From positions 1-9,271 of the forward strand of contig CANPYU010000188.1 in assembly GCA_947588665.1 (NCBI GenBank): a DNA stretch of 9,271 bases, written 5' to 3'. Of the stretch, positions 292 to 9,271 are shown piece after piece. Source of the stretch: an uncultured Bacilli bacterium. GTDB lineage: Bacteria > Bacillota_I > Bacilli_A > RF39 > UBA660. The translations under genes were made by a program, and so were the position numbers. A model generated the notes under the pieces. It did not search any database and was not told where the DNA came from. It saw only the letters and a list, made by a program, of their open reading frames with translations. Numbering within the stretch: the first letter of the stretch is position 1; every line of letters begins with the position of its first letter.

Positions 292-312
292 GATGCTTAG
301 GCATCTTTTTTT
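292..312 (+). terminator. Intrinsic terminator of the DUF378 gene
   Basis: GATGC (292-296), loop TTAG, GCATC (301-305), then seven T residues (306-312). It sits 10 nt past the DUF378 stop and overlaps the last codons of the convergent gene. Confidence 0.7.
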
Positions 313-818
313 CTGAGTAAAATTGTAGATTGAGGAAATTTAATTATAATATTTGAAATTAAATAGTTGTTTATTTCAGAGCTAAAGTCATAGCCTAATT
401 GTTTTAATGAGGTGACAAATTCTTTTTCATCAACAAAAAATAAAGGAGAGGTGTATTTTTTTTCTTCTTGATTATTTGTTGAAAAATCCATGATTATTGG
501 TAAAATATCTTTAAAAATGTGGATTGTTTTATTTTCTTTGGCATTTTCTAGATCTTCTTCTGGTATTATTATTAATGGTTGAAAATTAACAGTTAGAGTA
601 TCAAAATTATGATTGTTTTCTAAATTATTTTGAACTATTTTGGCTAATGTATTTTCAAAATAATTAACTGCGGATACAGTATTTAATTCATTAATTATTG
701 TTCTTTTATTATAACAATGATTTTTTAATATTTCTTTACTTTCTGTATTAATAATAACATATCTTATTTTTAGAGTAGCAAGCTCATTATATAAGGCAAT
801 TAATTCTTCTTTTTTCAT
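297..818 (-). CDS. Unrecognised 173-residue protein downstream of the DGR reverse transcriptase
   Basis: I do not recognise this family. It is soluble in character, with no signal peptide or membrane segment and a rich Asn/Glu/Lys/Ile content. It begins with an amphipathic helix (MKKEELIALYNELATLK), has a hydrophobic IIIP stretch mid-protein, and ends in a basic LRKKDA tail. The ATG at 818 has an AGAGGA ribosome binding site about 6 nt upstream. It begins 54 nt after the reverse transcriptase stop on the same strand with no terminator between, so it can be read as the last gene of that operon. A good promoter (TTGCTC, 17 nt, TATAAT) in the gap also allows separate expression. Position makes it a candidate accessory gene of the retroelement, but nothing in the protein itself shows this. 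Confidence 0.75.
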   Translation of the reverse strand: MKKEELIALYNELATLKIRYVIINTESKEILKNHCYNKRTIINELNTVSAVNYFENTLAKIVQNNLENNHNFDTLTVNFQPLIIIPEEDLENAKENKTIHIFKDILPIIMDFSTNNQEEKKYTSPLFFVDEKEFVTSLKQLGYDFSSEINNYLISNIIIKFPQSTILLRKKDA

Positions 819-872: not shown

Positions 873-1985
873 TTATAAATTCATTTTTTTTATTAAATTT
901 TTGCTATGAGCTATTTTTAGATAACCCATATAACTTGCTTTTACTTGATTATAGTTTGGTGCGTTTATTTTTTTTAATTTACGCATTTTCTTTTTAATAC
1001 GTCTTTTAGTTTGGGGATTTATTTTAATAATTAAACGTTTTCCTTTTAATAAAAATTGATAACCAAGGAAATTAAAACCATGATTTAAATCATAAATGTT
1101 AGTTTTTTTATTAAGTTCGAGTTTAAATTCTTGGAGTTTTACTTCTATTAGTTTCTTTATTTGCTTTAGTTTTTCTTTTTCAGGATGAAATATTATAAAA
1201 TCGTCCATATATCTTACATAATATTTACAATGAAGTTTTTCTTTAATATAATGATCTAAATCATTTAGAAAAAAAATAGCTAATAATTGGGATGTCATAT
1301 TGCCAATAGGCAAGCCTTTTCCTTTAGGATATGTGGGGATACGATTAAGTTCGGCAATTTTTGCTTCTTTATCTAAAATATTGAGACTTTTTATGCGAGT
1401 TATTTCTTTATTGACCACTTGTTTAATTCCTTTATTTATATAATCTTCGTCTGTTGAATTTATAATGTTAATAACTAGATTTAATATATCTGGATCTTTA
1501 ATAAATCTTTTTATTTTTTCTAAAATTAATTCATGGTCGATACTATAAAAATATTTTTTAATATCACATTTTAAAACATAGACTTTATCATAATTTAATT
1601 TAAGTTTGTTTATATATAATTTAACATATCTAAGTCCTTCTTTAGTCCCCTTTCCTTTTCTGGTTGCTACATTTTGAGGAAGAAGATAGGGAGTTATGCC
1701 TGGGGATAATACATATTTACTTATCAAATGATTAATAACTTTGTCACTCATTATTTCACTCATAATAATGCGATATTTAGGTTCATGAACTAAAAAAATG
1801 TTATAATGACTATGTTTATAATTTTTATTTTTTAATACTGTTAAAATACTAATAATATTAGCAGAATAGAATAATTCAAATTTATGAAGTTTACCTCGGT
1901 TTTTGGTATTAGAACGTATTATATTATACATCTCTTTTATTTTATCGATGTCTATTAAATCATCATATTTAACATTTAAGGCCAT
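873..1985 (-). CDS. DGR-type reverse transcriptase
   Basis: A 370-residue RNA-directed DNA polymerase with the ordered RT motifs: RIIMSEIMSDKVINHLI (72-88), ATRKGKGT (107-114), motif A LKCDIKKYFYSID with D141, the motif GLPIGNMTSQ (224-233), motif C YMDD (259-262, D261/D262), LELNKKTNIY (289-298) and FNFLGYQF (304-311). The IGNxTSQ form in place of the QGxxxSP of group II introns and retrons is typical of diversity-generating retroelement RTs. There is no maturase or endonuclease domain, as expected for this class. The three catalytic Asp residues are intact. The ATG at 1985 overlaps the Avd gene by 17 nt and has only a weak ribosome binding site (GTGAAAA), which suggests translational coupling. 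The expected job is cDNA synthesis on a template-repeat RNA with errors at adenines; the template repeat itself was not found nearby. Confidence 0.93.
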   Translation of the reverse strand: MALNVKYDDLIDIDKIKEMYNIIRSNTKNRGKLHKFELFYSANIISILTVLKNKNYKHSHYNIFLVHEPKYRIIMSEIMSDKVINHLISKYVLSPGITPYLLPQNVATRKGKGTKEGLRYVKLYINKLKLNYDKVYVLKCDIKKYFYSIDHELILEKIKRFIKDPDILNLVINIINSTDEDYINKGIKQVVNKEITRIKSLNILDKEAKIAELNRIPTYPKGKGLPIGNMTSQLLAIFFLNDLDHYIKEKLHCKYYVRYMDDFIIFHPEKEKLKQIKKLIEVKLQEFKLELNKKTNIYDLNHGFNFLGYQFLLKGKRLIIKINPQTKRRIKKKMRKLKKINAPNYNQVKASYMGYLKIAHSKNLIKKMNL

Positions 1986-2316
1986 TTTTCACTAGTCCAT
2001 ATGTAATCTTGCGAATTTCAATTATAAATAAAGATATAGATTCAAATTTTTTCTTACTAATAATTCTTTTTTCAAATGAAGTTGCGATATAATAATCTAA
2101 CATCGATAATTTAATAATTAAATCTTTTAAATATTTCATTTTAATACGTTCAATATCATTTATGCTATAAGAAAATATAAGTTCAATAATTTCATACATG
2201 GTTCTTTCAATATTTTGTTTTAAAACTACTTCACTTCGAGGATAGTTTATTAATTGCTTGTTAATATAATTAATAGTTTTTTTACTATTATTTAAAAGAG
2301 CAAAATTAGAGTTCAT
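1969..2316 (-). CDS. avd: Avd-like four-helix-bundle DGR accessory protein
   Basis: A 115-residue, basic, all-helical protein of the Avd / 23S rRNA intervening-protein-like four-helix-bundle family. Family features are the middle IKMKYLKDLIIKLSMLDYYI, then FEKRIISKKKFESIS, then a final helix IIEIRKITYGLVK. In characterised DGRs, Avd forms a pentamer that binds the RT and template RNA and is needed for mutagenic homing. I chose the ATG at 2316 because AAGGAG lies 7 nt upstream; a TTG two codons earlier is too close to that site. It overlaps the MSL gene by 11 nt and the RT gene by 17 nt, the tight coupling expected for subunits of one complex. The family call rests on size, composition and position next to a DGR RT. 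Confidence 0.85.
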   Translation of the reverse strand: MNSNFALLNNSKKTINYINKQLINYPRSEVVLKQNIERTMYEIIELIFSYSINDIERIKMKYLKDLIIKLSMLDYYIATSFEKRIISKKKFESISLFIIEIRKITYGLVKNGLKC

Positions 2317-2713
2317 CGACAAACTCCTTAATTAAACGATAATTTGCTTCTTCTTTTTTTACTTTTAATTCTATTGAAGACATAAGATTATTTAACTTAT
2401 TTGTAATTAACATACTATTTTTAGCTTCTATAAGTTTTTCTTGGTATTGATTTGAATTTTTTGATTCTAAAATATAAGCATAGTCATCTATTATTTCAAT
2501 TAGATTAACATTATTACGATTTAAAACACTTTTAACTTTAGCTTTGGCAGTAATGGGAAAGCCAACTTTATTTTCTCTTATTTGATAATTAAAGAGATAT
2601 TTTAGAATATAGGCATCTTCTTCAAAAGTGTAATAAAAATTACCAGATTTAACAAGTATTACATAATCTTGATATTTACTTTTAAATTTTACATATTTAT
2701 CAACTGTTTTCAT
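2306..2713 (-). CDS. Solitary MutS domain-I-like protein (DGR accessory MSL)
   Basis: A 135-residue protein resembling only the N-terminal mismatch-binding domain of MutS. YVKFKSKYQDYVILVKSG, then NFYYTFEEDA (25-34), then VGFPITAKAKVKSVL follow the order of MutS domain I: LK..yPd.iLlfr.GdFYE.F..DA, then GxPxha...yl..L. The connector, clamp and ATPase domains are absent. The wedge Phe is kept (F26), but the Glu of the Phe-X-Glu mismatch motif is Tyr (Y28). The C-terminal 50 residues are a charged helical tail. MutS-like (MSL) proteins are a described accessory gene of some Firmicutes DGRs. I chose the ATG at 2713 because GGGAGGG lies just upstream; an in-frame extension to 2803 would run through the promoter leader. 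It is first in the operon. Confidence 0.82.
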   Translation of the reverse strand: MKTVDKYVKFKSKYQDYVILVKSGNFYYTFEEDAYILKYLFNYQIRENKVGFPITAKAKVKSVLNRNNVNLIEIIDDYAYILESKNSNQYQEKLIEAKNSMLITNKLNNLMSSIELKVKKEEANYRLIKEFVDEL

Positions 2714-2725
2714 ATTAATCCCTCC

Positions 2726-2810
2726 CACAATTTTGTAGTTAAGATAAATACTGCTAATCATAACTAGATAAATATATGATAAAATTAACTTTATGTTTAT
2801 CATAATTGTG
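2726..2810 (-). ncRNA. Foldable 5' leader of the DGR operon (possible three-way junction)
   Basis: Three nested perfect inverted repeats lie in the leader. P1 is CACAATT/AATTGTG (2810-2804 with 2732-2726). P2 is ATGATAAA/TTTATCAT (2803-2796 with 2783-2776). P3 is TAGTTA/TAACTA (2766-2761 with 2741-2736). P1 and P2 abut with no gap, and P1 closes directly against the GGGAGGG ribosome binding site of the MSL gene. The region is AT-rich, so chance pairing is a real alternative. It could be a regulatory leader or an RNA part of the retroelement; no known riboswitch is recognised. Confidence 0.35.
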
Positions 2811-2819
2811 TATACTATA

Positions 2820-2848
2820 AATATATATTAGAAGTCGTTTTTTGTCAA
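2820..2848 (-). promoter_or_regulatory. Consensus promoter of the DGR MSL-Avd-RT operon
   Basis: On the minus strand: perfect -35 TTGACA (2848-2843), 17-nt spacer, -10 TATATT (2825-2820). The predicted start near 2813 gives an untranslated leader of about 100 nt before the ATG at 2713. The quality suggests constitutive sigma-A transcription, leaving control to the leader. Confidence 0.75.
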
Positions 2849-3961: not shown

Positions 3962-5434
3962 TTATTGGACTATGTATGGATTTTCTATAGTTCCCCATTC
4001 AGCTTGTTCATTACTTTTTTCAAATAAAATATTAGCTTGCAAATTAATCACAGGCTTAATAGTATTACTAACATTTACACTATTACCCCCAATTCTTCCT
4101 TTAGAGTTTATTATAAATACTCCAGCATATAAAGTATTTTTACTAACTATAAATGGAGACATGGTCCAGTAAGCATTTCCTGAATATAACCAATATCCAT
4201 AGTTATCTACTCCACCAAATCCTCCTGCAAGTATTGCTTCATCACTTGTTATTAACCCAATCGGATATATTAATTTTCCATTTCCATTTTCATTTTCTTC
4301 TTCATATTTTGTAAACAAATCTCTTCCTTTATTTGCACACTTTAATGTTACTTCTTGCTTCTGAATGTTATAATTATCAGTTCTTCCCCCAGGAGCATAA
4401 AATACAGCATTTTTACCGTATGCATTTTTTCCATATCCTTCAAATGATTTGGAAGCTATAGTTCTATCATTACAAAAACCAGTCGTATTGTCTAAATACT
4501 TCTCGTAATTTTTTAAATTACTATTACTATACCATTTTTCTAAAGATAACAATATATCACTTTTTATATTATTTTCATGGGCTTGTTCATAACTTGTTGT
4601 TATTCCTGGTAAAGTTTCATTATTCCAACTTCCACTTTTAGCAATTCCATACATAAATCCAACATATTTATTATCATTAACATATGAATTATATGCTCCT
4701 TTTAAATCATTATCTGACATCCACCTACCATCATTTGGTAAGTTTATACCATTATAAATTAATCTAATTGTTCCATTTCCATTTATTCGGATGATGCGCC
4801 AATATTCCGTACCTATTTTAACCCAATTATTATTTACTGTTCCTCTATAATAATAGCTTATCCCATCATCATCTTCAATCTCATATATTCCATTGTTGAA
4901 ATCGCTACAATTTGCACCATCTATATTATGATTTTCAGCATTTGTCTTTTCATCACAACTTGTGCCATAAAATGTATCTCCTAATGAACCATTTGATTTT
5001 AATCCTAAATATTTTAGTGTTAAAGTAGATTGTCCTTCATCAAAATATAAATAACATTTAGTCCCTCTTTTAGTTATATCTATACTTACTTTACCATTTT
5101 TATAAAGCATATTATTTTTTAATTTCTGTTCATTATTGGGTTCAGTGCAATAACTTTTTTCTGTATTTAATGAATAACCACTTTTAGGAACACTACTAAT
5201 TTGTTCATAGTTATTATCAGAAATATTATCTACTTGTTGATACATAGCAATTACATTTAAATCTGCTAAACTATAATTTACTTTCCCATTAACTATTTGT
5301 ACACTCTCTGTTACCTGATACTTCGCTTTAGTCATAAATAAATTAATGGTTATTATCAGCAATATGGCTATAATAAATCCTGATATAAATATTATTTTAT
5401 TATTGTTATATCCATTTAACTTTTCGAATTTCAT
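3962..5434 (-). CDS. Membrane-anchored surface protein with a C-terminal DGR-target-like domain
   Basis: A 490-residue protein. A short cytoplasmic N-terminus is followed by one membrane segment (about 14-33) with no lipobox, then an extracellular region. The linker includes VNYSLADLNVIAMY (52-65). Six Cys (96, 127, 160, 176, 321, 366) allow three disulfides. The C-terminal domain starts near VKIGTEYWRIIRING (205-219) and runs through GYWLYSG and YWTMSP (422-427) to KPVINL (460-465). This resembles DUF6273-like, C-type-lectin/FGE-like folds used as DGR targets. YGKNA is tandemly duplicated at 334-343. Likely role: a displayed ligand-binding protein. The ATG at 5434 has AAGGAG 7 nt upstream. 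Its promoter carries a palindrome and faces a divergent XRE gene. It lies upstream of the DGR operon on the same strand, beyond the MYG1 gene. Confidence 0.82.
   Translation of the reverse strand: MKFEKLNGYNNNKIIFISGFIIAILLIITINLFMTKAKYQVTESVQIVNGKVNYSLADLNVIAMYQQVDNISDNNYEQISSVPKSGYSLNTEKSYCTEPNNEQKLKNNMLYKNGKVSIDITKRGTKCYLYFDEGQSTLTLKYLGLKSNGSLGDTFYGTSCDEKTNAENHNIDGANCSDFNNGIYEIEDDDGISYYYRGTVNNNWVKIGTEYWRIIRINGNGTIRLIYNGINLPNDGRWMSDNDLKGAYNSYVNDNKYVGFMYGIAKSGSWNNETLPGITTSYEQAHENNIKSDILLSLEKWYSNSNLKNYEKYLDNTTGFCNDRTIASKSFEGYGKNAYGKNAVFYAPGGRTDNYNIQKQEVTLKCANKGRDLFTKYEEENENGNGKLIYPIGLITSDEAILAGGFGGVDNYGYWLYSGNAYWTMSPFIVSKNTLYAGVFIINSKGRIGGNSVNVSNTIKPVINLQANILFEKSNEQAEWGTIENPYIVQ
4040..4168 (-). 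other. Candidate DGR variable region (VR) in the surface protein
   Basis: Codons 423-465 (W423 to L465) have the layout of lectin-fold variable regions: fixed WTMSP, a patchy variable middle, and fixed PVINL. In codons 428-458, 19 of 31 end in T or C, with clusters of AAT, AGT, ACT, GTT and GGT. This is the expected result of AAT/AAC template codons mutated at their adenines. It is suggestive only, because AT-rich codon use also favours NNT, and no matching template repeat was seen. Confidence 0.5.
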
Positions 5435-5959: not shown

Positions 5960-6064
5960 ATGATAGAAGAGATTTTATCTGTGATATTATTGTTTTTAAC
6001 TATAAAAAAGACACTTATCTTCATCAGTATTGATATAAAGATAAATGTCAATAAATTAAAATAA
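5960..6064 (+). CDS. Candidate 34-residue hydrophobic peptide with leader minicistron
   Basis: This lies in the 320-base stretch between the XRE and LysM genes. The ORF encodes a small peptide beginning MIEEILSVILLFLTIKK, with a hydrophobic helix (about 5-15), a KK break, a second hydrophobic patch (19-26) and a basic end. A perfect AGGAGG (5945-5950) lies 9 nt before the ATG. That site sits inside a six-codon in-frame minicistron (5939-5956, MNRRH-stop) which has its own AAGGGGG site at 5928-5934. A promoter (5844-5871) and a hairpin with T-rich tail (6068-6100) frame the unit. Size and layout resemble type I toxin or small membrane-peptide genes, but I do not recognise the family. The main doubt is that the 3' half overlaps a strong minus-strand terminator. 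Confidence 0.45.
   Translation: MIEEILSVILLFLTIKKTLIFISIDIKINVNKLK
6004..6049 (-). terminator. Strong intrinsic terminator of the LysM-end operon
   Basis: On the minus strand a 12-bp stem with one G-U pair joins GACATTTATCTT (6049-6038) to AAGATAAGTGTC (6021-6010), with further pairing inside, followed by TTTTTT (6009-6004). It lies 85 nt past the LysM gene stop and is antisense to the small-peptide ORF. Confidence 0.75.
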
Positions 6065-8514: not shown

Positions 8515-8589
8515 GCAGATATAGTTTAATGGTTAGAATATAAGCTTCCCAAGCTTAGGATACGAGTTCGATTCTCGCTATCTGCTCCA
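8515..8589 (+). tRNA. tRNA-Gly (anticodon CCC)
   Basis: The full cloverleaf can be drawn. The acceptor GCAGATA (8515-8521) pairs with TATCTGC (8579-8585). The D-arm region is GTTTAATGGTTAGAAT. The anticodon stem TAAGC/GCTTA encloses TTCCCAA with CCC at 8548-8550. The T-arm is ACGAG-TTCGATT-CTCGC with one mismatch at the outer pair. CCA is encoded (8587-8589). It decodes GGG, and is notable as a C-starting anticodon in such an AT-rich genome. Confidence 0.92.
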
Positions 8590-8974: not shown

Positions 8975-9017
8975 AATACTTTGCTAAAGCTTTAATTTTG
9001 TAATAATAAATTTAAAA

Positions 9018-9271
<254 letters not shown>

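Follow-up and report, generated by a model that had tools for sequence, protein, structure and literature searches.

The diversity-generating retroelement (DGR) of the Bordetella phage BPP-1 resembles the system described here in the family of its reverse transcriptase (RT), in its Avd protein and in the adenine mutagenesis that relates template repeat (TR) and variable repeat (VR). A structured spacer lies 3' of its TR, as it does in the TR units of the close relatives studied below (PMC12875486; this and the following papers are cited from their accessible portions). In BPP-1, however, TR, Avd and RT are found in one locus, whereas our system keeps the RT apart from the TRs, has numerous TRs and targets and includes an MSL gene as well. 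In Thiohalocapsa PB-PSB1 some targets are best explained by an RT and a TR that act in trans, but the loci presented in the accessible part of that paper are incomplete ones beside complete ones (PMC10907252), whereas here a family of stand-alone TR RNAs is combined with an enzyme locus without a TR. The remote variable proteins of cyanobacteria are lectin-fold paralogs dispersed over the genome, much as the lectin-like targets are here; in the accessible text they accompany complete cassettes, and it is targets, not templates, that are described there as dispersed (PMC7517822). The MetaCSST survey gives multiple VRs for 271 of 948 DGRs and presents examples with two and six TRs, but 216 of the 271 multi-VR DGRs have one TR, and the example with six, which shows few A-to-N changes, is termed atypical in the portion seen (PMC6642488). 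Targets of gut phage DGRs carry the VR in a DUF6273 domain (PMC11792537; PMC10743442), termed lectin-like in the latter paper; in the accessible portions they number one or two, whereas tens of matches are present per bacterial genome here. One large survey states, in the part available, that DGRs whose targets are remote would escape its own method (PMC8144416), and a system such as ours would go unnoticed by tools that require one contig to carry TR, VR and RT. In the accessible text of the openly licensed PMC papers searched, no description of a dispersed TR RNA gene architecture was found. The parts are of known kinds; an enzyme locus without a TR, combined genus-wide with dispersed template RNA genes and tens of dispersed target matches, is a new variation on them.

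The DNA analysed, a stretch of 9,271 nucleotides from a gut bacterium, is called the window. From sequence comparison it very probably carries the MSL-Avd-RT enzyme cassette of a trans-acting DGR, in which one enzyme would serve many templates and many targets and which would be kept across the genus.

The MSL-Avd-RT cassette

An earlier note on this DNA had proposed a DGR-type RT with IGNMTSQ and YMDD, a small Avd-like protein and a MutS-domain-I-like protein, encoded downstream of a consensus promoter by three co-oriented genes with overlaps of 11 and 17 nt. The coordinates (Table 1) confirm both overlaps exactly, 17 nt between RT and Avd and 11 nt between Avd and MSL, all genes lying on the minus strand. 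The RT matched Pfam RVT_1 (5.8e-21) and the PHROG reverse transcriptase profile (3.9e-85). The solved structure nearest to it was 8ub7 (7.2e-27), which we take to be the RT of the BPP-1 DGR; the first group II intron RT was found at 4e-13. Both the SQ motif and the YxDD expected of a DGR RT are present, and in the 21 close-clade RTs of the tree set (window included) YMDD is conserved in all and GLPIGNMTSQ in 20. Profiles, motifs and best structure back the DGR-type assignment.

The presence of an Avd accessory protein is indicated by matches to PF22296 bAvd (40.4 bits, barely above the cut-off of 40) and to phrog_3206 Avd (1.3e-12), with NCBIfam DivGenRetAVD at 37.7 bits lying under its cut-off of 80. 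MSL matched PF01624 MutS_I (5.5e-7, 30.2 bits against a cut-off of 20.6) over profile positions 5-47 of 113, as the note had expected. Placement of the RT with group II introns or retrons, and failure of the Avd or MSL models to match, were looked at as grounds for rejecting the assignment, and neither was found. The candidate promoter is TTGACA-17-TATATT read from 2848 to 2820 (11/12 consensus matches) in the conserved leader region; a scan of the window for promoter-like sites yields 28 hits against a shuffle mean of 20.7, with the cassette site among the two best. The MSL leader (window 2714-2848, minus strand) has a mean column identity of 85% over 10 sequences and could be a regulatory element. 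Possible hairpins were spotted by eye in the same stretch.

Table 1. Positions of the cassette and of the neighbouring target-family gene in the window
Feature	Position	Strand	Basis
RT, DGR-type reverse transcriptase, 370 aa	873..1985	-	Pfam, PHROG, structure match, motifs
Avd-like protein, 115 aa from its ATG	1969..2316	-	PF22296, phrog_3206
MSL, stand-alone MutS domain I plus C-terminal helix, 135 aa	2306..2713	-	PF01624, predicted fold
Leader, conserved, with ribosome-binding-like GGGAGGGATTAAT	2714..2819	-	Alignment of 10 sequences
Cassette promoter-like site TTGACA-N17-TATATT	2820..2848	-	Motif scan; inside conserved leader region
P490, target-protein family member, N-terminal membrane helix and lectin-like C-terminal domain	3962..5434	-	Homology to VR-bearing targets; model
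VR-equivalent stretch of P490, drifted from TR backbone	4051..4159	-	Alignment to G002 TR core

Conservation of the cassette locus

Relatives were sought in one genome per species, and the best 80 of 125 were used. The close relatives among these 80 are Bacilli assemblies in which the RT is 70-90% identical. They make up a close clade of 24 loci in 23 genomes (L001-L019, L021, L024, L025, L028 and L029, of which L021 and L028 belong to the same genome); L024 is Candidatus Caccenecus avistercoris, class Bacilli. In these fragmented assemblies MYG1 was found upstream of the cassette in 19 of the 24 loci and DUF378 after the RT in 22, several of the absences being contig ends. The cassette is a fixed feature of one chromosomal site in the close clade.

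The RT tree comprised 94 sequences, the close clade being represented by those RTs that have a long enough frame. Its 21 close-clade RTs (window included) formed one group with a support of 0.851, and the window RT clustered with those of L001 and L002 (support 0.889). In the relatives the parts of the system, their separation, the covariation of the RNA and the adenine-biased TR-to-VR differences were all observed. The TRs of the window's own species are deduced from these relatives, among which its RT nests, and the species would presumably work as they do.

Between the window and L001 and L002, dN amounted to 0.065-0.074 for RT, 0.035-0.038 for Avd and 0.053-0.057 for MSL. The values for P363 (0.13-0.14) and MYG1 (0.134, L001 only) were above all three; those for bPH153, LysM105 and DUF378 were equal to or below that of RT. 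The RT gene is frame-split in L018, L019, L024 and L029 and the Avd gene in L025, for which decay, assembly error and a programmed shift are candidates. An ORF of 173 aa (window 297-818, minus strand) gave a weak Pfam match to prok_STING (E 0.0097, below cut-off); among the cassette loci compared, it was matched downstream of the RT only in L001 and L002.

Search for templates beside the RT

A scan of the window for a TR/VR pair, in which all four bases were tried in turn as the free base within one strand and A and T also against the reverse complement, gave nothing above the AT-rich background. The TR RNA module as defined by model R1 (82 nt, built from 34 units, a module being called at E<=1e-3) occurred 0 times in the window together with 19 of the 24 close-clade RT loci (265,933 bases), some of these loci having flanks of up to 10 kb. 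A TR beside the RT, as in a classical cassette, is therefore missing from all of them. The earlier note had described the locus as a compact DGR operon. This stands as far as the DGR-type RT, Avd-like and MutS-domain-I genes are concerned, but the operon is not self-contained, since the window is without a TR.

A second TR/VR scan covered L001-L035 apart from rows about L020-L024. Among the matches listed, no cis pair with adenine-only differences was present in the close-clade rows. Cis pairs in which all differences fell at template A were seen in the more distant relatives L027 (19/19), L030 (22/22), L034 (15/15) and L035 (10/10). The window could accordingly be imagined as part of a classical cis DGR with its TR just beyond the ends of these 9,271 bases, as the cis TRs of distant relatives might suggest, but the absence of the module from 19 close-clade RT loci, flanks included, makes this exceedingly improbable. 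Several other repeats were rejected by eye as DGR pairs: Asp-rich repeat proteins (L008, L014, L015, L018, L019), duplicated target-family genes (L005, L013) and, in L003, a repeat of a small ORF, besides runs of N and some minor repeats.

Weaker module matches were observed in L248, L026, L020 (three) and L023, each on the contig that bears the RT concerned. Because these weak modules sit on RT contigs, the trans arrangement may have arisen from a cis one. In G073 one module lies on the RT contig at a distance of about 0.9 kb and four lie elsewhere, and all seven modules of G117 are on contigs other than the RT contig.

TR units resemble RNA genes

When the translated TR of L030 was used as query, many short N-rich stand-alone copies were found at a distance from the targets; tandem series with a period of about 300-350 nt are frequent among them. 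Four TR units with a spacing of 343-346 nt follow a target gene in L134, and an array in G010 (C20:22672-26018) contains, among the matches listed, 12 TR modules about 250-370 nt apart. The loci held 64 distinct TR units; 56 passed and, one being left out, 55 were aligned. The typical unit is laid out as a -10 box, the 5' arm GGGTTAATCT, a TR of about 100 nt, an ATATCC end, a structured 3' module, the 3' arm AGATTARTCC and a terminator.

RNAalifold applied to the 55 units predicted a closing helix of GGGTTAATCT with AGATTARTCC around the TR, together with an inner helix (TATCC : GGATA) and a hairpin at the apex. The helix cells were paired in 98.5% of cases and double changes occurred in 10 of 24 pairs. 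Double-change cells numbered 74 versus 20.9 after shuffling, and 0 of 500 shuffles reached the observed values, although relatedness can inflate this control. Slid versions of the structure paired in 28-45%; this control keeps relatedness but is biased towards the structure, which was itself obtained from these sequences. A -10-like box is present upstream of 50 of the 55 units (36 exact), mononucleotide shuffles giving a mean of 21 and a maximum of 29, and a terminator-like stem followed by T is found downstream of 54 of the 55 (a count made without shuffle comparison). By these features the TRs look like RNA genes. No Rfam family matched three TR loci at E 0.1. With regard to carriage by phages, the one IMG/VR match to the TR-end 17-mer is antisense within a phage gene and was taken as chance.

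Model R1 detected the module in 23 of 23 close-clade genomes, with 1-26 copies in each and 163 in total; 11 of these genomes had contributed units to the model, and the other 12 carry 46 of the 163 copies. The two genomes nearest to the window RT, L001 and L002, have 9 and 13 modules. Within the genus to which G002 belongs, 32 of 36 genomes had the module, leaving four without it, and it was found weakly in 1 of 12 other DGR-bearing relatives. Order-wide (193 genomes) it occurs in 7 genomes and the RT at E<=1e-100 in 12, with both present in 6. The seventh genome with the module, G162, carries 8 copies of it and 38 target matches, yet the RT found there is a diverged one (40%), which means either that the close RT is missing from the assembly or that another RT does the work. 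Extended to the whole clade, the latter would imply that some other diverged RT uses the TR RNAs and that MSL-Avd-RT has a different job. This finds some encouragement in G162 and in the additional, diverged RT of 5 of the 23 close-clade genomes; yet in 13 of the 23 just one RT match was found and in a further five only pieces of one RT, all of these genomes having TR modules, and we regard it as very unlikely.

Differences between TRs and VRs are concentrated at adenines

On the basis of frame length, 13 of the 51 matches listed for G002 were taken as TRs and 38 as VRs; 8 and 34 of these, respectively, were compared, the rest being without a clean core. In the 8 VRs with no more than 5 non-A differences, the bases that differ from the template were A 105/215, C 7/172, G 5/162 and T 4/172. 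In this freshest set, one row of which has 63 gap columns, 49% of A versus 3% of C/G/T had changed. When templates were assigned by plain identity instead, 9 VRs gave a similar series (A 111/240, C 8/194, G 4/183, T 9/201). The full set of 34 VRs was noisier (A 473/963, C 159/774, G 114/728, T 82/795), as expected from old copies or missing templates, and many VRs are distant from every TR or mosaic. A single TR on contig C1 was the best template for 23 of the 34 VRs, 20 of them on other contigs. Six other genomes provided 14 usable VRs, for which plain-identity templates gave A 184/406, C 54/321, G 55/299 and T 26/342; 8 of these VRs, drawn from five genomes, show no more than 6 non-A differences (A 119/248, C 13/180, G 15/167, T 7/195). 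Adenine-biased TR/VR pairs, as expected of a DGR, are thus present in close relatives. When the TRs of G002 were compared with each other, A differed at 44/229 and C/G/T at 45/552. The higher density at A hints that TRs are rewritten too.

As in other DGRs the 3' ends of TR and VR are different: the TR units end in CCAATATCC and, judged by eye, most G002 VRs in CCAGTAATAAA, which presumably correspond to IMH* and IMH.

The TR-like copies might alternatively be silent cassettes for homologous gene conversion between paralogs, without participation of the RT. Paralogs are indeed many, the cassettes are in tandem and many VRs are mosaic or far from all TRs. Gene conversion is nevertheless hard to reconcile with differences that cluster at template A, with TR units that resemble RNA genes with covarying helices and with the co-occurrence of module and RT, and we give it very little credence.

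The target proteins

P490 shares homology with those targets of L026, L027 and L030 that bear VRs. In a gapped alignment of its VR-equivalent stretch with a G002 TR core, C differed at 14/22, G at 12/19, A at 11/29 and T at 2/23. The stretch looks like an old, drifted VR because the differences are mostly non-A, and as such it neither supports nor refutes present activity. The dN of P490 versus L001 and L002 was 0.49-0.61, for a pair that may not be orthologous. Matches to the C-terminal domain of P490 number 10-89 per genome in 14 members of the close clade and 13-39 in the remaining nine; this copy number is not peculiar to the trans clade, as 12 other DGR-bearing relatives have 3-30 matches. 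Among the matches listed, PF19789, which we take to be DUF6273, was found in 11 of 120 relatives of P490.

The drifted VR of this neighbouring gene, the window without a TR and the split RT or Avd frames of some relatives would all suit an orphan cassette, left behind in a species that lost its TRs and whose RT no longer diversifies anything. Such a loss appears unlikely in view of the intact RT, Avd and MSL genes with their low dN and of the TR modules borne by both nearest genomes. The preferred reading is still that the cassette serves templates located elsewhere in the genome.

Proposed mechanism and the role of MSL

In a trans-acting system of this kind the cassette would have stayed at one chromosomal site, while the templates would have moved away from it and expanded into a family of small RNA genes. 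Any TR RNA would serve RT-Avd as template, the copying errors falling at A, and the resulting cDNA would overwrite the VR of many dispersed lectin-like proteins. VRs would be told from TRs by their end, CCAGTAATAAA versus CCAATATCC.

The name MSL and its earlier description reportedly come from a 2018 NAR survey. Structure prediction gives MSL the fold of MutS domain I. The mismatch motif of MutS domain I is F-x-E. It is absent from MSL. Across 23 sequences Phe 26 and Tyr 27 are invariant, and the position of the Glu is occupied by Tyr in 22 and by Val in one. As a speculative guess, MSL would bind mismatches between cDNA and target and so keep the host MutS off the mutated heteroduplex. A fuller picture can be put forward only tentatively, and is somewhat doubtful as a whole: a genus-wide chromosomal repertoire with one vertically inherited RT-Avd-MSL, template RNA genes that multiply in adenine-rewritten tandem arrays, tens of surface lectins in flux and MSL shielding the heteroduplex from host MutS.

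If true, a system with one enzyme and many templates, present in genomes of about 1.2 Mb, would represent a bacterial counterpart of antigen-variation repertoires, and RT cassettes without a TR should not be written off as dead. It would lend itself naturally to studying how template RNA is selected by a DGR RT, given the covarying closing helix, and how MutS-like accessory proteins function.

Other features of the window

A short hydrophobic peptide-like frame at 5960-6064 (plus strand) looks type I toxin-like by eye, and a repeat pair resembling it seems to be present in L003 (3918-4023 and 6323-6428). Towards the end of the window are a tRNA gene (8515-8586, plus strand), short TTCCAGT-type repeats (9013-9095) and the start of a recombinase-like ORF (9193-9271, plus strand), the last two recognized by eye. 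Together these three may be the edge of an integrated element.
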